Positions 717-10,071 of a DNA stretch of 10,071 bases are shown in pieces. A program made the translations under genes and the position numbers. This stretch comes from an uncultured Clostridiaceae bacterium (GTDB taxonomy: Bacteria > Bacillota > Clostridia > Lachnospirales > Lachnospiraceae): assembly GCA_949841235.1 (NCBI GenBank), contig CATKZA010000028.1:1-10071 (forward strand), read 5' to 3'. Within the stretch, counting starts at the first letter, position 1. The number at the start of each line of letters is the position of its first letter. Below the pieces are notes generated by a model, which had not been told where the DNA came from, did no database searches, and worked only from the letters and a program-made list of their open reading frames with translations.

Positions 717-3700
717 CTAATGAATAGTAACAACCGACCTCACATAGCGCACCAGCATTTTAGAAATCTGGTACAGATGTGCCGTGTCTGCCTCCTGTGT
801 CTCTATCTGACTGTTCAGCAACTCATTTCTCGACTTGAAATCCATTCCAAAAGAAATGTTCCTGACCTGGAATCCGGCATTCTCCATATTCTCCCTCAGT
901 GCATCCTCCCCGGCTTTCAACGCCTCGTAGCCACTGCGCTCGTCACAGAGCACAAAGCCCTTCACCTTGCCGTCAGACAACTTGAAGTCCAGAGAAATAT
1001 TGCCATAATTCCCGTCTTCCATAGAAACCTGAATCCTCCCTGACTCATCTGCCCCATGGATAATCGTTAGATTCAATGAAGTGATGGTATCCCCTGTACG
1101 GATGGGAATATCATAACTGCGGGACTGCCTCATCGCCCCCTGCAAGCGGATTCCCCGCCCCAGCTGCCGCAATGTCTGCAAATCCTCAAAAGATATATCG
1201 GCTTGTTCATAGGATTTCGTGAGAATGTCCTGCATAATTTTTTCTGACCGCTCGCACTTCTCCTGAAGGACAGCCTCCTCCCCCAGGGCATCTTCTATGG
1301 AATCCACCACATCTTCCAACTCCTGACGCTCCTCCTGAGGCAGCACATTTCTCCTCTTGTATGTCTCTCCATAGACATTCTGCTGTCCCTCCAGCACAGT
1401 CTGCATGGCCATGATATTCCCCATGGTGTCCGGTATCCCCAATTTTCCAAGATACTCCTGAGCCTCCACGGAGGACTGCATCTGCTCCCTCACTTCCGCC
1501 GCCAGCATCTCGTAGTATTCCCGCTTGACTTCCTTATTCCCCGGCGCATTCTTCAACTGTTCGAAAAACTTCTCCACGGACACGTCCAGCAATTTCTCCA
1601 TATCCCCGTCAGTGATATCGGTTAATTTCTCCGGAGTGAGCGCCTGCAAGCTCTCTTCCACAAGATTCTGGTAATACCGTGCCTGGCTGACCTGTCCCTG
1701 TATCTCCTGTCCGTCACTCTGACCGGAAAATCCTCGCTGAATCTGCTCCGTGATGGTCTCCTTCGTTCTGGAAATCTCCCGCACGCCTGCGCTGTCATCC
1801 ACAGTGGAATCAATGCCATTCCCCTTGCGGATTCTGGCCTGGGTCAGCAGATTCCCCAGCGTCAGTTCCTGCTTCGCCCCCATCAGAGCGCCAATTACCG
1901 CCCCGTCAGACTGCTCAATCTGATGCAGCAGACGGTACACGCCGATATATCCCGCCCTCTCGTTCTCCGTAATCTGATTGGACTTCTCTAGCTGCCACAG
2001 GAACCGGCTGTATTTCTCCTGATCGTCAATGCCCTTCTCTTCATTGATCTGCTTTAATTTTTCATTCAGTTCGTCAATTGGCATATCCAGCGGATTTTCT
2101 CCCCGGCGGATCAGTTCCAGTACCGTAGCGGGCTTCATATTCTCAATGACCTGATTCACCTTGCTGTCAAACACCTTGACCTGATTGATATTCTCCTCGG
2201 TAATCTCCATGCTGTTGTATCCCAAGATGCGCACTGCCCTCTCATTGGCCTGGGTATCCTCAAGCCCCATGTCCGAAAGCATCTCCGGCACGCCCTGGAA
2301 GGCTTTCTCGATGGAATCACCCAAATCCGTCCTCACCTGGGTGCTTACCGTCTCATACACGCCATTCCATTCCTGCCTATTTGCCACCTGGCTGCTCACG
2401 GCCTTGTGCAACTCGTTCACCGTGAGGAGTTCCTGCTGCCTTACTCTGGTACCCAGAATGGCCGCATGGGCATCCGCAATATCTTTGGCCTTGGATAAGG
2501 TTTCTTGCAGCAAGTCAATCTGCTCCGGGGCAATATCCTCCACCCGGGTGCCAATCTGCCCGCTGTAATAATTCTGCTCCTGCCGGCGCAGTTCCGAAAT
2601 AATCTGATTCAGGGAAGCCGTCTCCACCCGGATGCCCTTCTGAGCCATGCGAACCGCCGACTGCAATGTCATCTTCTGGCGAATCTCCTCCACCTGCCTC
2701 TTCAATGTCACCTGGGCAATCTCATCCTCGGACATATCCTTCCTGTAAATCGTAGGCACCGGATCTCCCTGTCCGCCGCCGGATACCCGGATCTTATCCT
2801 GGATCTCCCGAATCAGTTCCAGATTCACAAAACCCCGCTTATCCTGAGTTTCGTCCTCCTGTCCCGCTGCCCCCTCCTGAGCCTCCGCCCCTACAGGAAT
2901 CATCTGGGGATGTTCTTTCAGATAATCCACCACATGAATAATCGTGCTATCGTCAATCTGCTGGAAATCCTTCACCGCATCCCTGGCCACCACGAACTGG
3001 CTGTCGTCCAGCACCGCCTCCTTGGCAGACAGACCCGCAGACATGGCGAAGAGAATCTGTTCCAGCACCTTATCCCCCGTCATATTCTTCGGAACCTGCT
3101 CTAACGTCTCCAGTTTGGACAGGGTGACCTGGTTGATGGGAAGCTCCCTGTCAAAGAGCCACCGGGCATTCTCCCTTCCCTCCGGGGTATCATAGCCGCA
3201 GTTTTGCAGTATCTGCTCAATCTGCTTTTGATAGGCCCTGTAATCCTGCCCCGCATCGGAACTGCTTCCCGAGCCAAACACAGAAAATTTCCCCTGATAC
3301 AGATGATCGATGGTGGGGGATAGATTCTGCCCCACGATATAGGCTTTGGACTGATCTGTCATCTCCAGAGCGGAATGGCTCATGGACAGGGCGGAAATCA
3401 CCTGGGACAAATTCTCCTCTGTGGCGGGAATGCCCGCATCCTCCATGGCCTGGCGAATCTGCCCCTCGCTCTTCTGATCCAGAAATCCAGCCAGCTGCAT
3501 CCTCTCCAAATCCTCCTGGAGCTTCTTCCGAAACTCCTGATTCTCCTCCATCTTCTGCTGCTGCCAGTTCCTCCTGGCCTTCCCCTTCTCGATGGCACTC
3601 TCCACCACCTCTTTGGTCATCTTCTCCAGAGAGCCTTCTTCCTCTTCAATCTCCTGATAATCCTCGCCGCTCAGCACGGCAAACTGCTCCCCCTCGTCCA

Positions 3701-4079
3701 GAGTTCCCGCCGCTTCCTTTGCACTCTTCTCCAGATAATCGGCAAAGCCGTATCCATTGGGAACTGCACCGGCGCTCATCCTGTCCCCGGCATCCCCCGT
3801 CTCCGGTCCCCTGTCCACTTCCTTCAGCACGATGCTGTCCTTGGAGATATCCATGATGCGGAAACTCCTGACATCGCCCTCCACCGGGTTCTTCACCGCA
3901 TTCTTCGCCACCGATACGCTGATTCCATTAAAATTCAGCGTAATCTGCCCGGAGACAGCCCCGATCATCCCCTCCACGGTCTGCCCTTTTTTTCCAATAT
4001 TCAGAAAGGAGTTCGCCAGGGCATGCTCCTTCTGGTTGTTTGCACGATTGCCATAAATGGTCACACTTCTAACGTCCAT
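717..4079 (-). CDS. DUF6240-like large protein, candidate FliK-type hook-length protein
   Basis: A 1120-residue soluble, helix- and glutamine/glutamate-rich protein with no signal peptide or membrane segment. I recognise it as DUF6240-like; the family has no established function that I know. Residues about 35-90 form a small beta domain (KGQTVEGMIGAVSGQITLNF, then a 'PVEGDV..F.I...S.D.IVLKEV' pattern) like the N-terminal beta modules of some FliK proteins. The long middle is mostly amphipathic helix with coiled-coil-like stretches. Residues about 985-1080 follow the FliK C-domain plan: beta strands (DIPIRTGDTITSLNLTIIHG, RIQVSMEDGNYGNISLDFKL), then a helix ending in ALRENMENAGFQVRNISFGM. The first ATG at 4091 is probably not used: its GGGGGA is the ribosome binding site for the ATG at 4079, 4-5 bases downstream. 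The neighbouring flagellin fits a flagellar role. The FliK assignment is inference; gene reality is near certain. Confidence 0.9.
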   Translation of the reverse strand: MDVRSVTIYGNRANNQKEHALANSFLNIGKKGQTVEGMIGAVSGQITLNFNGISVSVAKNAVKNPVEGDVRSFRIMDISKDSIVLKEVDRGPETGDAGDRMSAGAVPNGYGFADYLEKSAKEAAGTLDEGEQFAVLSGEDYQEIEEEEGSLEKMTKEVVESAIEKGKARRNWQQQKMEENQEFRKKLQEDLERMQLAGFLDQKSEGQIRQAMEDAGIPATEENLSQVISALSMSHSALEMTDQSKAYIVGQNLSPTIDHLYQGKFSVFGSGSSSDAGQDYRAYQKQIEQILQNCGYDTPEGRENARWLFDRELPINQVTLSKLETLEQVPKNMTGDKVLEQILFAMSAGLSAKEAVLDDSQFVVARDAVKDFQQIDDSTIIHVVDYLKEHPQMIPVGAEAQEGAAGQEDETQDKRGFVNLELIREIQDKIRVSGGGQGDPVPTIYRKDMSEDEIAQVTLKRQVEEIRQKMTLQSAVRMAQKGIRVETASLNQIISELRRQEQNYYSGQIGTRVEDIAPEQIDLLQETLSKAKDIADAHAAILGTRVRQQELLTVNELHKAVSSQVANRQEWNGVYETVSTQVRTDLGDSIEKAFQGVPEMLSDMGLEDTQANERAVRILGYNSMEITEENINQVKVFDSKVNQVIENMKPATVLELIRRGENPLDMPIDELNEKLKQINEEKGIDDQEKYSRFLWQLEKSNQITENERAGYIGVYRLLHQIEQSDGAVIGALMGAKQELTLGNLLTQARIRKGNGIDSTVDDSAGVREISRTKETITEQIQRGFSGQSDGQEIQGQVSQARYYQNLVEESLQALTPEKLTDITDGDMEKLLDVSVEKFFEQLKNAPGNKEVKREYYEMLAAEVREQMQSSVEAQEYLGKLGIPDTMGNIMAMQTVLEGQQNVYGETYKRRNVLPQEERQELEDVVDSIEDALGEEAVLQEKCERSEKIMQDILTKSYEQADISFEDLQTLRQLGRGIRLQGAMRQSRSYDIPIRTGDTITSLNLTIIHGADESGRIQVSMEDGNYGNISLDFKLSDGKVKGFVLCDERSGYEALKAGEDALRENMENAGFQVRNISFGMDFKSRNELLNSQIETQEADTAHLYQISKMLVRYVRSVVTIH

Positions 4080-4104
4080 AAAATCCCCCATTCTTACTTA
4101 GCCT

Positions 4105-4927: not shown

Positions 4928-5002
4928 TTTTGATAAAGCAAAAGTGAACTTTGTTCGCTATGCAGAAATGAGGATTATTATGGCAAAAAGGAGTTGGGAT
5001 TT

Positions 5003-6625
5003 ATGAAGAAAAGATATGCTATCTTAGCCGGGGGGCTTTTGATGCTTTTGGCGGCAAGCCTATTGCTGGGCATGATATATTTAAATCATGATGGCGGCAA
5101 AAGGAACAAGGCTACAGTGAAAGAAAGCGATGCACCAAAAGGGCAAGCCACAGCTACTGAATCCGATGCATCGGAGAAACCGATACGGTTCAATGTTAAC
5201 CTTTCTGTGTCTTGGTCTCACTATAGTCCTATGGAAGGGTGGTTTATAGAAGAGCATTTGAAAGAAAAGTTTGGAATAGAGGTTTGGCAGGCGGATGCCT
5301 CCCGCGGTGGTTTCGATGGAACCGAGGAGGGCATAGAATTATGCTGGCTGCAATCATACACCAATTTTTATGATGCGGTCAAGGAAGGTAAATTAAGGAA
5401 CTTGGAGGATGAAATCAAAGAGCATCCGGAAGTTTATCGAAGATATCGGAAGGCAATCAAAAAGATTAAAGCCGATACCTATAAGAATACCGGGAAAAAG
5501 GGAGTTTTCGGCATTCCCTCATGGCTGTCTTCTTTTGACGATACCGGGATAGAGGGGGTTTGCGTGGTAGTTCCTGCGAATGCCCCCCATCCGGAGCTTG
5601 CGCTGGAATTGCTTACCTATTCTGCTTCTGATGAGGGCATTATGAATATTGCTTTCGGGCCGGAAGGGCAGATGTGGAAAAAAGAGAATGGGAAGTATGT
5701 ACTTTTGCAGGACGGGTATCAAATCAATGATGAAAATCCAGGGAAAAAGTTTGTGAAGACCAAGTCCGGGATGGTGGATTTTGGATCTGCCATATGTCCT
5801 CTGGAATTGGTGGGCAATGTGGGTTTAGGACGGGAACTGCTGAAACGATCGTCTGGCAAGAACAAGGCTACAGTGAAAGAAAGCGATGCACCAAAAGGGC
5901 AAGCCACAGTTGCTGAATCCGATGCATCGGAGAAACCAATACGGTTTTATGTAAAACTTTCTGCAGGCTGGAGTCCGAATAGCCCTATGAAGGGGTGGTT
6001 TATAGAAGAGCATTTGAAAGAAAAGTTTGGAATAGAGGTTTGGCAGGCGGATACCTTCCGCAGTGGTTTCGATGAAAGCGAGGAAGACATAGAATTATGC
6101 TGGCTGCAATCATACACCAATTTTTATGATGCGGTCAAAGGAGGGAAATTGCGGAATTTAGAGGATGAAATCAAAAAGCATCCGAAAGTTTATCGAAGAT
6201 ATCGGAAGGCGATCAAGAAGATCAAAGCCGATACCTATAAGAATACTGGGAAAAAGGGAGTTTTCGGCATTCCCACATGGCTGTCTTCTTTTGACGATAC
6301 CGGAATAGAGGGGTATTGCGTGGTAGTTCCTGCGAATGCCCCCCATCCGAAGCTTGCACTGGAATTGCTTACCTATTCCGCTTCCAATGAGGGCATTATG
6401 AATATTGCTTTCGGGCCGGAGGGGCAGATGTGGAAAGAGGAGAATGGAAAGTATGTGCTTTTGCAGGACTGGTATCAAATCAATGACGAAAACCCAGGGA
6501 AAAAGGTTGTGAAGACCAAGTCCGGCATGGAGGATCGTGGAACTGCCATATGTCCTCTGGAATTGGTGGGCAATGTGAGTTTAGGACGGGAACTGCTGAA
6601 ACGATCGTCTGGCAAGACCAAATAA
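5003..6625 (+). CDS. Membrane-anchored protein with two tandem shortened solute-binding-protein modules
   Basis: A 540-residue protein. The ATG at 5003 follows AAAAAGGAG with a 9-base gap; the TTG at 4994 is too close to that box to be the start. Residues 5-27 are a hydrophobic signal-anchor or signal peptide without a lipobox cysteine. Two 252-residue units follow (35-286 and 287-538), about 88% identical by my hand count. Each begins with a hydrophilic linker bearing two ESDA motifs, then a segment like the N-lobe of family-1 extracellular solute-binding proteins (LCWLQSYTNFYDAVKEGKLR, ending TGKKGVFGIPSW, like the usual 'GK.YGIP'). The C-lobe signature follows almost directly (VVVPANAPHPELALELLTYS and EGIMNIAFGPEGQMW). 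The roughly 200 central residues of a normal binding protein are missing. No ABC permease genes are nearby, so a transport role is doubtful; a cell-surface binding or scaffold role is equally possible. Confidence 0.88.
   Translation: MKKRYAILAGGLLMLLAASLLLGMIYLNHDGGKRNKATVKESDAPKGQATATESDASEKPIRFNVNLSVSWSHYSPMEGWFIEEHLKEKFGIEVWQADASRGGFDGTEEGIELCWLQSYTNFYDAVKEGKLRNLEDEIKEHPEVYRRYRKAIKKIKADTYKNTGKKGVFGIPSWLSSFDDTGIEGVCVVVPANAPHPELALELLTYSASDEGIMNIAFGPEGQMWKKENGKYVLLQDGYQINDENPGKKFVKTKSGMVDFGSAICPLELVGNVGLGRELLKRSSGKNKATVKESDAPKGQATVAESDASEKPIRFYVKLSAGWSPNSPMKGWFIEEHLKEKFGIEVWQADTFRSGFDESEEDIELCWLQSYTNFYDAVKGGKLRNLEDEIKKHPKVYRRYRKAIKKIKADTYKNTGKKGVFGIPTWLSSFDDTGIEGYCVVVPANAPHPKLALELLTYSASNEGIMNIAFGPEGQMWKEENGKYVLLQDWYQINDENPGKKVVKTKSGMEDRGTAICPLELVGNVSLGRELLKRSSGKTK
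5105..5860 (+). repeat. Tandem duplication, unit 1 (756 bp)
   Basis: This unit matches 5861-6616 at a constant offset of 756 bp (252 codons) with no insertions or deletions at any of several anchors checked. Both start AACAAGGCTACAGTGAAAGA and end GTCTGGCAAG. Substitutions are scattered and many change residues, so the duplication is fairly recent but not brand new. Confidence 0.95.
5861..6616 (+). repeat. Tandem duplication, unit 2 (756 bp)
   Basis: Second copy of the 756-bp in-frame unit, directly abutting the first. The protein ends only two codons after it. Differences from unit 1 cluster in the first 75 residues (for example WSHYSP to WSPNSP, ADASRGGFDG to ADTFRSGFDE), while the C-lobe part is nearly unchanged. 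Confidence 0.95.
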
Positions 6626-6711: not shown

Positions 6712-7953
6712 ATGAGATACCAAATCATTTTAGATGGATTGTCTTGGGAGGGGCTTCCCTGGAAATCCTTTTGCAAATATGCGAAAAGAAGGTACAGATA
6801 TCTGGATTTCCCCGCTCGGGGAGTGGTTGAACTATGTGATGATTCCGGTCGCATATCAGAGTATGAGGCAAATATCATTGTAAAAGGCATGCTGTCGGAG
6901 TATATGGATGATAAATTCCCGCTAAAACAGTATGCTCCCTCAGAGCATGGCAAGGCAGTGCTGCCGATTGAGACGGATGTTATCGCTGATACTTATTTGT
7001 TTTTGAGCCTGAAATTAGCAATATTGCAGGCTGATGTTCGGAGTTCTTCTGTGATAGACCGCTATTTTCTTGATATTAGGGTGAATTATCATGCCGATTA
7101 CTGGCATTTTTATGATTTTGAGGAAGATCTGGCTTCTTTGCTGGACATCAAGGGGATTGTTTATGAGGATATTCCGGTAAATGGCATATGCAATCTGATA
7201 AAGGAAACCACAGGGAGAGGGACGTATGTCATGATGCATTTGGATGAGTTTTACATTTCCAGAAAGGTATCCTATCATAATCAGCATTTGGTGAAGGAAA
7301 ACTTGATCTATGGATATGATGACGAAGAACGGATATTTTACGCCTTTGGATTTGGCAGGAGGGAGCAGATCGAAGCCTTTTCTATTACATACGACGAGAT
7401 GGTTCTTTCCTTTGAAAAGGGGAGATTTTTTTATTTTAGCGGAGCAGCGTATTTGTCAATGGATGGATTCTATCCGGTCACGCTGATTGACATTTCCTGC
7501 GATGAGACATTTGAATTGACAGAAGCCTATTTGCTCTCAAAGATGAAGGACTTTATGCATCCAAAAGAACGGCGGGTTTCAACGGATGGCATTCAGATCT
7601 ATGGGTCCGATGCATACGCATGGATTTTGGAAGAACTGGAGGGGAAGGCAGATCGGCAAACCGTGGATTATCGAACCTTTCACCTATTATATGAGCATAA
7701 GAAAAATGTCTATCGATGTCTTCAGAAATTAGGAACGATGGGAGGGCTGGAAGAGAAATATCGGGAGGTAGTCAGGGGCTTTAACAGACTGCGGATTATG
7801 TATATGAAAGAAGCCGGAATGAGCGAAAGATTAATGAAAACCCAAAAGATATATAAGATTCAGGATGCCAATAGCAAATTTATTTTGGAATTCAAAAGGG
7901 AGATTGAAAAAGAGGCAAAGATAAATTCATCTTTATTTATTTCGACCAAATAG
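6712..7953 (+). CDS. BtrH-N / C39-peptidase-like papain-fold protein, 413 residues
   Basis: The ATG at 6712 has AAAGGA 7 bases upstream. The product is soluble, with no signal peptide or membrane segment. Residues about 120-240 match the layout I know from BtrH N-terminal / C39-like proteins common in Firmicute biosynthetic clusters. A short helix region is followed by a strand and the motif MMHLDEFYIS (174-183), then H189 and H192 (YHNQHLVKEN), then LIYGYDDEERIFYAFGF (198-214) and a 'F.ITYDEM..SF' segment (223-234). I see no clear N-terminal catalytic cysteine, so it may be a non-enzymatic or acyl-transfer variant. Residues about 260-413 are mainly helical and charged, ending in a coiled-coil-like tail. 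The last seven codons and the stop lie inside the right 44-bp repeat, so the C-terminus may have been donated by it. It follows the tandem-module gene by 86 bp. No peptide-synthesis genes are in view. The family call is by pattern only. Confidence 0.88.
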   Translation: MRYQIILDGLSWEGLPWKSFCKYAKRRYRYLDFPARGVVELCDDSGRISEYEANIIVKGMLSEYMDDKFPLKQYAPSEHGKAVLPIETDVIADTYLFLSLKLAILQADVRSSSVIDRYFLDIRVNYHADYWHFYDFEEDLASLLDIKGIVYEDIPVNGICNLIKETTGRGTYVMMHLDEFYISRKVSYHNQHLVKENLIYGYDDEERIFYAFGFGRREQIEAFSITYDEMVLSFEKGRFFYFSGAAYLSMDGFYPVTLIDISCDETFELTEAYLLSKMKDFMHPKERRVSTDGIQIYGSDAYAWILEELEGKADRQTVDYRTFHLLYEHKKNVYRCLQKLGTMGGLEEKYREVVRGFNRLRIMYMKEAGMSERLMKTQKIYKIQDANSKFILEFKREIEKEAKINSSLFISTK

Positions 7954-7973
7954 CCTCTTCTCTTTACTCATTA
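7930..7973. repeat. Right copy of 44-bp exact direct repeat
   Basis: Identical to 4244-4287. It covers the last seven codons (SLFISTK) and the stop of the 413-codon gene and the bases just before the extended -10 promoter of the GrpE-like gene. The base composition rises in GC a little beyond it. Confidence 0.93.
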
Positions 7974-7977
7974 GATA

Positions 7978-7986
7978 TGATATAAT
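7978..7986 (+). promoter_or_regulatory. Extended -10 promoter for the GrpE-like/Hsp70-like genes
   Basis: TGATATAAT contains a perfect TATAAT (7981-7986) preceded by the TG of an extended -10 element. The -35 region 17 bases upstream (TTCTCT) is poor, and lies in the 44-bp repeat. Transcription from about 7993 would give a 45-base leader before the start at 8038. Confidence 0.6.
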
Positions 7987-8037
7987 AAGATTTAACTTGA
8001 TATTTTTTTATGAAGCAATGATTGTATGGGGGTACAT

Positions 8038-8571
8038 ATGGATACTAGGGATTTGCAGACTCAAATCCATGATTTGACGGAACGGTTGATTCAGACCGAG
8101 AAAAATCGGGATGAATACAAAACGAAATACTTTCAATTCAAGGGAATCTTCCAGCGGCAGACGCACACATTGTATCTCTATCAGAGCCTGTCGGAGAGCA
8201 GCAAGGAAGCTTTGAAGGGAATTGTCAAGGGAATGTCCTTCGAGGAGTTCCTCGCATGCGGCGTACAGCCCGGGAATATCGATGCCCTGTGGGAGTTTTC
8301 CAGAAACGAAGCCCTGAAGGGCAATAAGAATGACTTGCCCATTCTGGAGCAGATCATCTCTTACTTCGTCCGGCTGTATAACGGCACCAACGACTCCCCT
8401 GTTATTGATTTTCTCACCTTATCAGAGGGGGATTCTTTTGACTTTGACCTCCACATCCGAACCCAGGACAGCAAGCCCGCCGGGAAGATTTCAAAAGTAC
8501 TGCTGCCGGGCCTTGTGAACGCCTTTACCGGAGAAGTCATAAAAAAAGCGGTCGTCGAAATCCTTGAATAA
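8038..8571 (+). CDS. GrpE-like protein, 177 residues, candidate exchange factor for the adjacent Hsp70
   Basis: The start is taken as the ATG at 8038, 5-6 bases after GGGGGT; the in-frame ATG at 8026 has no ribosome site. Residues 1-40 are a charged coiled-coil-like helix (LQTQIHDLTERLIQTEKNRD). Residues about 50-125 are helical. Residues 129-175 follow the GrpE C-terminal beta-domain pattern: 'SEGDSFDFDLH' against the family's 'GdpFDpnlHeA', then 'AGKISKVLLPG' against 'gtVveVlqkGY', then 'VIKKAVVEI' against 'vlRpAmVkV'. Coiled coil, helices and small beta domain in that order is GrpE architecture and the length is typical (about 170-200). The HEA residues are not kept (HIR here), and the central helices look divergent. 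GrpE proteins release ADP from Hsp70; here the next gene is an Hsp70-like ATPase 248 bp downstream on the same strand. The gene is solid; the GrpE call is inference. Confidence 0.9.
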   Translation: MDTRDLQTQIHDLTERLIQTEKNRDEYKTKYFQFKGIFQRQTHTLYLYQSLSESSKEALKGIVKGMSFEEFLACGVQPGNIDALWEFSRNEALKGNKNDLPILEQIISYFVRLYNGTNDSPVIDFLTLSEGDSFDFDLHIRTQDSKPAGKISKVLLPGLVNAFTGEVIKKAVVEILE

Positions 8572-8574
8572 AAA

Positions 8575-8792
8575 AGCGCAAAACCAGCGTTTTGCGCTGC
8601 AAGAATTGCTTCGCAATTCTTGGTTGGCGCACCGCTACTTTGCGAGCATTTTCCTATACAGTAAAAAAGGTGCGAAGTCATTCTAGGCTCGCAATAACCT
8701 CGCCAAGAATAACTACGATCGCACCTAAGAAGAACGCAAGACCAGCGTTCTTCGCTTTGCAGATTTTGAGCAATTTCCTATACATTAAAAAA
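8575..8792. repeat. Hairpin-rich, internally repeated intercistronic element
   Basis: The spacer between the GrpE-like and Hsp70-like genes starts inside the stop region. Perfect hairpins: AGCGCAAAAC/GTTTTGCGCT (8575-8598), CAAGAATTGC/GCAATTCTTG (8600-8622) and GAAGAACGC/GCGTTCTTC (8729-8753). AGGTGCGA (8668-8675) can pair with TCGCACCT (8719-8726), with nested ATTCT/AGAAT inside. Two parts recur directly: 8578-8598 with 8736-8756 (18/21 identical) and 8644-8668 with 8768-8792 (23/25). On the minus strand the first hairpin is followed by six T, a terminator shape, but no minus-strand gene precedes it. A 72-codon frame across it (8592-8810) is judged spurious. This looks like a small dispersed palindromic element inserted in the operon. 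Confidence 0.75.
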
Positions 8793-8819
8793 TTTGATAC
8801 GGAATATTAGGAGGTACCT

Positions 8820-10071
8820 ATGAACATCACAACGAAACAAGTGGATAAGATTGCTATCGGAGAGGATCTCTTTACAGAGGTGGTGGAGGAGCATATCCCC
8901 ACCCTGATCAAGAAGCAGACCGCTCTGCTCACGTCATTTTTTGACGGCGTGCTGGCATATATCCGAAAGCATAACAGGCAGTCCAATTGGTTTTATATGG
9001 GCAACCGCCATCTCTTGTATAACAATGCTGTGGCGGCGCTCTTCCCCGACTTAGGCGAGTTCGACCTGGGACACTGCCCGCTGAACCGCCCCTATGACCC
9101 CATCACTTTCCACAATGAATTCGACCGATATACCGGCACGCTGATGACCCCCAACGAATTTAAAACCGCTTTTGCGGGAAAGTTTGACAAAATATACCAG
9201 CATTGCCCTGAGTACCTCTTCGACGGCTATTTCACCGTGATGGACTTCCACAAGGCGTTCCATGCGGACGGCATCCACTCCAAAAGGTGGAACGGATTTT
9301 CCAAAATCGAGGCATACCATATTCCCATGTACCGCCTAAATGGCATGGATAGCTCCTCCATCCCCCCGGCCATGACGCTGCATTTCTGGCTGGAACACGA
9401 ATTGATTCCTGATGATTTGCCGGAGGATCTGGCCGCAGCCTACCAACATGTAATCTCTCTGTATCAGATTACGCCTGACTGCTTCCTGTGGGAAAAAGAT
9501 GTAGTTAGAATACAGGACGATATTATCCTACAGAGCGTACTGGACGGAAAGGCCAACTTCCTCTTTGACGAGGAGGATGCCTCCTTCCTGTATAATGTCA
9601 ATGAAAAAACGATTACCTTGGACAACCTGTCCCCGGCCTCCCTGCAGATCGTGAAGGATCACTTGCTAGGATCCGACCAGAGACGGGCTGATTTTGACAG
9701 GTACGATGAGAATATTTTGATTGACCCCAACCGGGGCCACTGGGGACTGTGGCAGGACGAGCATTCCCATGTGAAATACACCGCCAAGCTGGACACGCCC
9801 CTCATCGCTAGGAATCCGGAAGCTGACGTGAACTATGACGGCATCATCGGGATCGACTTCGGAACCAAAAGCACGGTGGTAGTGTATCAGGACAATCGGG
9901 AGCGGATCATCCCCATGCGTATCGGCACCAGCCATTTTTCCAAAAAAGCCGATCTGAAACAGTATGAGAACCCCACGGTGATGGAACTGATCAATGTTGA
10001 CCGCTTCATGAAATTATACCGCCAGAAAGAGGGTCGCCCCGACACCCTGTGGGAGGATCTTACCATTTCCC
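8820..10071 (+). CDS. Hsp70/actin-fold ATPase with ~340-residue N-terminal extension (3' end outside window)
   Basis: The ATG at 8820 has a strong AGGAGGT five bases upstream, and 417 codons are open to the right edge. The Hsp70 phosphate-1 loop GIIGIDFGTKSTVVVYQ lies at residues 341-357. It is followed, as in DnaK, by a 'RERIIPMRIG' strand and 'YENPTVMELI' (the usual 'PS/TvV.f'), so the fold is confident even though the rest is missing. In ordinary DnaK this loop is at about residue 5-15. Here 340 residues precede it, rich in aromatic, histidine and acidic residues (for example WFYMGNRHLLYNNAVAALFP at 57-76 and LHFWLEHELIPDDL around 187-200), with no signal peptide or membrane segment and no family I recognise. 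The extension could select clients or partners. The upstream GrpE-like gene suggests a dedicated chaperone pair. Confidence 0.92.
   Translation, partial: MNITTKQVDKIAIGEDLFTEVVEEHIPTLIKKQTALLTSFFDGVLAYIRKHNRQSNWFYMGNRHLLYNNAVAALFPDLGEFDLGHCPLNRPYDPITFHNEFDRYTGTLMTPNEFKTAFAGKFDKIYQHCPEYLFDGYFTVMDFHKAFHADGIHSKRWNGFSKIEAYHIPMYRLNGMDSSSIPPAMTLHFWLEHELIPDDLPEDLAAAYQHVISLYQITPDCFLWEKDVVRIQDDIILQSVLDGKANFLFDEEDASFLYNVNEKTITLDNLSPASLQIVKDHLLGSDQRRADFDRYDENILIDPNRGHWGLWQDEHSHVKYTAKLDTPLIARNPEADVNYDGIIGIDFGTKSTVVVYQDNRERIIPMRIGTSHFSKKADLKQYENPTVMELINVDRFMKLYRQKEGRPDTLWEDLTIS

Follow-up and report, generated by a model that had tools for sequence, protein, structure and literature searches.

Here, we describe two adjacent genes of a Lachnospiraceae gut bacterium that probably encode a dedicated Hsp70 machine, made up of a divergent Hsp70 and a GrpE-type nucleotide exchange factor of its own that would bind it and exchange its nucleotide. 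The window analysed is the whole stretch of 10,071 nucleotides, positions 1-10071 of contig C28, from an assembly of 2.1 Mb that is 66% complete. By computation, the product of the first gene, the small protein, shows the beta-domain profile of GrpE and is predicted to take the GrpE fold. The two genes are conserved neighbours, and their frames behave like real genes, under purifying selection.

Results

The pair and its parts lie in the window as follows.

8038..8571, + strand: GrpE-like protein, 177 amino acids (aa) (open reading frame (ORF), profile, AlphaFold and Foldseek)
8044..8184, + strand: long helix predicted at the N-terminus of the GrpE-like protein, residues 3-49 (AlphaFold model)
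8404..8559, + strand: beta-domain predicted at the C-terminus of the GrpE-like protein, residues 123-174, which aligns with GrpE (profile, model)
8809..8814, + strand: Shine-Dalgarno-like AGGAGG ahead of the Hsp70-like gene (sequence)
8820..10071, + strand: first 417 aa of the Hsp70-like ATPase, truncated where the contig ends (ORF still open at 10071)
8820..9824, + strand: residues 1-335 of the Hsp70-like protein, an N-terminal extension (structural matches start near residue 335-342)
9840..9875, + strand: phosphate-1 loop GIIGIDFGTKST, residues 341-352 (sequence; D346, G348 and T349 invariant in 38/38)

A preliminary description of this DNA had recognised the order of GrpE in the 177-residue protein, and the AlphaFold model bears this out: at a predicted local distance difference test score of 92.5 it has a helix at residues 3-49, then helices, then six strands, the predicted succession of helix, helical segment and beta-domain that characterises GrpE. 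The GrpE fold proposed there was likewise recovered, as the beta-domain matches the GrpE profile (hhalign 77-87%, far above shuffled controls) and Foldseek ranks 1-10 are all GrpE or GrpEL1 chains. The protein could instead be a coiled-coil scaffold only, resembling GrpE by convergence on a common helix-plus-beta layout. Such a reading can draw on the absence of a Pfam call, since the window's small protein has 0 Pfam families and does not reach the PF01025 cut-off, and the best PF01025 score among the relatives whose scores were seen was 19.6 bits against a cut-off of 25.8. The sub-threshold Pfam matches of the relatives are mostly generic coiled coils, and a PDB sequence search with the small family gave weak coiled-coil matches only, GrpE 3a6m appearing at E 0.24 over the helical part only. 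However, the profile match falls in the beta-domain and not in the coiled coil, GrpE structures occupy the first ten structural ranks, and the neighbouring gene encodes an Hsp70, the known partner of GrpE; we consider a mere scaffold very improbable. NCBIfam and PADLOC yielded no family for the window's small protein.

The complete Hsp70-like protein is 1029 aa long in the closest relative, locus L005, where it is 97% identical to the window over the first 417 residues. The window's Hsp70-like protein has a single match in its own genome, the window copy itself. The fold of the Hsp70 nucleotide-binding domain (NBD) and the phosphate and adenosine motifs are present and the ATPase residues are kept. 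The phosphate-1 loop GIIGIDFGTKSTV begins at residue 341 (nucleotide 9840), exactly where it had been placed before. The motifs are spaced more widely than in DnaK. Among the 50 structural matches listed, all are of the Hsp70 family except two whose titles name only a complex, and an actin-like or SrfB-type identity is therefore not supported. Whole-protein alignments with full-length Hsp70s reach residues 1026-1029, and in these the C-terminal beta region appears to align with the beta part of the substrate-binding domain (SBD). The model ends in this beta region, with no SBD-alpha lid helices after it. Pfam HSP70 had no match in five full-length relatives, NCBIfam DnaK/HscA matches lay far below cut-off, and a sequence search of the PDB gave one irrelevant match. 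As a candidate part specific to a client or partner, the N-terminal extension of 335 residues may stand in for a J-protein or the lid. A phage origin was also considered and rejected, phage records giving no match and the small protein having none among viral contigs; the Hsp70-like protein had five viral-contig matches, four of which touch only the phosphate-2 stretch while one spans residues 342-621 at 24%.

The small-gene ORF spans 8026-8571 on the + strand with an alternative start at 8026, but the start at 8038 looks likelier, given a GGGGG Shine-Dalgarno-like run at 8028-8032. Compared with L005, the ratio of non-synonymous to synonymous substitution was 0.041 for the small gene and 0.020 for the 5' part of the Hsp70-like gene; against L007, L011 and L014 synonymous sites were saturated. 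The Hsp70-like gene had been described as directly downstream, which holds in so far as it is the next gene on the same strand. The gap, however, is only 25 bp in L005 and 248 bp in the window, where it contains at 8572-8808 a 237-bp insert, a dispersed palindromic repeat with 32 matches in its own genome, matches in 13 of 28 genomes of the genus and an RNA fold z of -5.9.

Conservation of the pairing was assessed over 34 distinct loci: L005-L027 (23 loci, the source of full-length relatives in the genome collection), L053, L054, L090, L091, L094, L095 and L116-L120. Within these, the close clade L005-L015 is 64-97% identical over the window's 417 residues. Left out were same-contig duplicates (L088=L005, L089=L007, L093=L008, L107=L014), short loci of places already counted (L001-L004, L108-L115), the weak contig-end fragment L092, five viral matches and further genus copies known only as search rows. 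The small gene was sought with a hidden Markov model of the small protein's C-terminus on all ORFs of the loci, and 'not found' denotes no ORF of at least 60 aa with E <= 1e-3. Interrupted genes were counted as found, unrepaired (the first Hsp70 of L016, the small gene of L025, the Hsp70 of L120), as was the small gene of L006, inside which the contig begins. The second Hsp70 of L016 and L094 was used in the distance test, and one piece of L120 in the tree.

The synteny anticipated from the window alone was found in most loci: 23 of the 34 have the small gene, and in 22 it lies immediately upstream of an Hsp70-like gene on the same strand, L095 having three genes between. The small gene occurs in 14 of the 28 genomes of the genus, the Hsp70-like gene in 15; in the extra genome, G654, the match starts at base 2 of the contig. 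Distances between small genes and between Hsp70s correlate (Mantel r 0.97 over 18 loci; 0.79, p 0.0002, over 11 loci with one of the flagellar clade), and loci with the small gene group together on the Hsp70 tree, where four changes are needed against 9.5 in shuffles. Occurrence is sporadic, at 6/398 genomes in a phylum sample and 3/250 in a family sample, the window's own being counted in both; a class sample searched with another query gave 1/391, the window's own only. Lone Hsp70-like genes lacking a recognised GrpE-like gene form two well-supported groups, L017, L019, L021-L023 and L020, L024, L026, L027, from Oscillospiraceae and Clostridiaceae records. A 337-aa gene just upstream in L054 matches coiled coils and may be a relative that has diverged too far for recognition.

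The absence of hrcA and of a CIRCE-like element (controlling inverted repeat of chaperone expression) had been reported earlier and was confirmed: no CIRCE occurs in the window at up to 3 mismatches, and no hrcA, dnaK or dnaJ among the four + strand window ORFs scanned. Of 21 genomes searched, 20 have a separate canonical GrpE that passes the Pfam cut-off; the exception is the window's own assembly, which is 66% complete. Since canonical GrpE is encoded separately in these genomes, and the window lacks CIRCE, identity with the housekeeping locus was rejected; the separate canonical GrpE also argues for a second machine. Further divergent GrpE domains above the Pfam cut-off were seen in relatives at L049, L050 and L051, and two of these domains belong to long open frames (653 and 574 aa).

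The flagellar genes beside the pair offer another explanation, namely that it is a flagellum-dedicated chaperone for flagellin or for the adjoining giant DUF6240 protein. In the close clade a DUF6240-like gene, assigned by Pfam in L005, lies on the upstream side of the pair in 9/11 contigs, and beyond it flagellin, a FliS/FlgN-sized gene and malQ follow in 7, the other contigs being cut too near the pair to show them; at least 9 of the 14 genus genomes with the small gene have flagellin on the same contig. Yet the pair is transcribed away from these genes, with trmL, a name assigned from sequence, next downstream in 8/11 contigs. Flagellin is present in all 28 genus genomes and the Hsp70-like gene in 15, and when the flagellin locus was examined in 11 of the 13 genomes lacking the Hsp70-like gene, all 11 had the DUF6240-flagellin block without the pair, one cut by a contig end. 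The flagellar link therefore looks positional, and as the 12 other loci with the small gene showed no flagellin or DUF6240 relative, we judge a flagellar function unlikely. In the window itself, 717-4091 on the - strand encodes a protein of about 1100 aa adjoining flagellin whose L005 counterpart matches DUF6240. Two further window genes were noted, a 543-aa protein at 4994-6625, internally duplicated and matching a solute-binding-protein family (SBP_bac_1), which does not lie between flagellar block and pair in L005, and a 413-aa ORF at 6712-7953, same strand and just 5' of the pair, with no family match above cut-off and not at this place in L005.

In other bacteria, the pair often sits in gene clusters of a mobile, defence-like character. 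Eight of the 12 non-flagellar loci that have the small gene (L016, L018, L025, L053, L090, L095, L118, L120) also encode a HerA/FtsK-like ATPase within that run of genes, and L120 is the nearest outside relative of the flagellar clade in the Hsp70 tree (support 90/97, branch not starred). The pair adjoins DUF4280-AHH nuclease and Hcp-like genes in L116 (11593-16606) and a VgrG-like gene and a plain 305-aa Hsp70 in L117 (2865-9336); these may be an injection or toxin module. An Acinetobacter plasmid copy lies between an insertion sequence element and an integrase, surrounded by genes for a WYL regulator, HEPN, dynamin and HipA, and relatives of the WYL-like gene of L018 occur at L116 and L117. 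On a Helicobacter plasmid, L054 (6125-13810), the Hsp70-like gene spans two ORFs, and its neighbours are WXG100, WHH nuclease, SMI1 and FtsK/SpoIIIE genes, with no recognised small gene. The HerA-like proteins match the PADLOC HerA and mad8 models, and two Hsp70-like relatives weakly touch the PADLOC candidate model PDC-M61B (14.5 and 11.4 bits). A separate gene set at L090 131-5196, upstream of an operon of pair plus ATPase, includes a 929-aa protein with a canonical-looking GIDLGTTNSVLA Hsp70 motif near its start.

These neighbours, together with the sporadic occurrence, could mean that the pair comes from an anti-phage or inter-bacterial conflict system, either as a remnant or as a minimal version that is active, the cycling of the Hsp70 serving to control a partner ATPase or effector. 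The ATPase, however, is missing from the window's clade, none being found in its own incomplete genome, and a related ATPase present in 6 genus genomes is not beside the pair in 5 of them. PADLOC gave no match for the window's small protein or the L005 Hsp70, nor did phage records for the pair. We regard this explanation as a serious possibility, but incline slightly against it.

Discussion

The evidence is best accommodated by a divergent Hsp70 working with its own exchange factor. The small protein would dimerise through its long helix, and its beta-domain would open the nucleotide cleft of the Hsp70 and thereby promote ADP release. This release may reset the Hsp70 for ATP and so free a client held by the C-terminal beta region, the part that would bind clients.

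Several observations weigh against a dedicated machine. Foldseek TM-scores of the small protein are about 0.3, and its VIA-align Z is below 8, unrelated helical proteins reaching 5.5-6.1. The 237-bp repeat separates the two genes in the window, and no sigma-70-like promoter was found at 7900-8850. The pair encodes no J-domain protein, and HPD motifs in the ORFs of the 13 paired loci searched do not appear to be in J-like settings. No small gene turned up in 11 of the 34 loci (nine chromosomal ones, L017, L019-L024, L026 and L027, plus L054 and L119), so this type of Hsp70 may work without it. The correlation of distances weakens for distant pairs (Spearman 0.39 over 124 pairs), and co-inheritance alone would be enough to produce it.

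Comparison with known systems places the pair near, but apart from, established families. The small protein resembles GrpE (PF01025) in its long helix, helical segment and C-terminal beta-domain with a conserved pattern, and in the adjoining Hsp70 gene; it differs in having no Pfam call, a divergent Hsp70 as partner and no hrcA or CIRCE found in the window. Its family also has a conserved F.ACGVQ..N(I/L)..LW helical segment that is absent from the canonical GrpE alignment consensus. The larger protein shares with DnaK/Hsp70 (PF00012) the NBD fold, phosphate loops and catalytic residues, and its C-terminal beta region appears to align with SBD-beta, but it has an N-terminal extension of about 335 aa, a 73-residue disordered linker, no alpha-helical lid in the model and no Pfam HSP70 call.

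A dedicated HSP70-GrpE pair is not a new idea, because such pairs are described by Kaur et al. 2020 (PMC7159879), where HSP70 with its own GrpE is reported in about 14% of GAP1-N2 GTPase neighbourhoods. Thus, while a separate Hsp70 machine is supported by the canonical GrpE encoded elsewhere, the preliminary description went too far with its 'new system' as regards the idea of such a pair. The GAP1-N2 theme is alike in encoding HSP70 with its own GrpE, sometimes with a second HSP70, in a conflict setting and in Firmicutes, and includes GTPases together with a fusion of an FNIII protein to DnaJ or TPR. No GTPase or FNIII-DnaJ/TPR protein was seen among the subset of neighbouring genes scanned, which instead had a HerA/FtsK-like ATPase or nothing more. 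What sets the present family apart from that theme is an extended Hsp70, a GrpE that goes unrecognised and the HerA/FtsK partner. CoCoNuT systems (PMC11090510) are similar in having an Hsp70-like unit in a defence system and HerA-superfamily ATPases in some extended operons, but there the Hsp70-like NBD/SBD domains are fused to McrB/McrC, and the word 'GrpE' is absent from the main text. Two GrpE proteins are reported in Myxococcus xanthus (PMC10313047). The gene pair itself was not described in the full-text literature searched, which was mostly without subscription papers.

With less certainty, the ancestor of the pair may have been a multi-gene system of the conflict or secretion type that included a HerA/FtsK-like ATPase, and this Lachnospiraceae lineage may have retained the two genes as a unit, at a chromosomal site next to flagellar genes. 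More tentatively, conflict or secretion machines powered by Hsp70 may form an undescribed class with this pair at its core, in which Hsp70 cycling tuned by the dedicated exchange factor loads or licenses an effector. Components of such a machine would be the GrpE-like protein, one or two extended Hsp70s, the HerA/FtsK-like ATPase, a hydrophobic glycine/alanine-rich protein of about 240 aa, a protein of about 172 aa and a WYL-type regulator, and the window's lineage would represent a reduced two-gene form.

These findings extend the GrpE family beyond the reach of its Pfam profile and point to another Hsp70 machine, encoded apart from the housekeeping one and found as a gene pair in bacteria that are only distantly related. 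The Lachnospiraceae pair offers a compact two-gene version for biochemistry, and if the link to conflict or secretion is true, it would give a direct handle on how an Hsp70 ATPase is used outside general protein folding.
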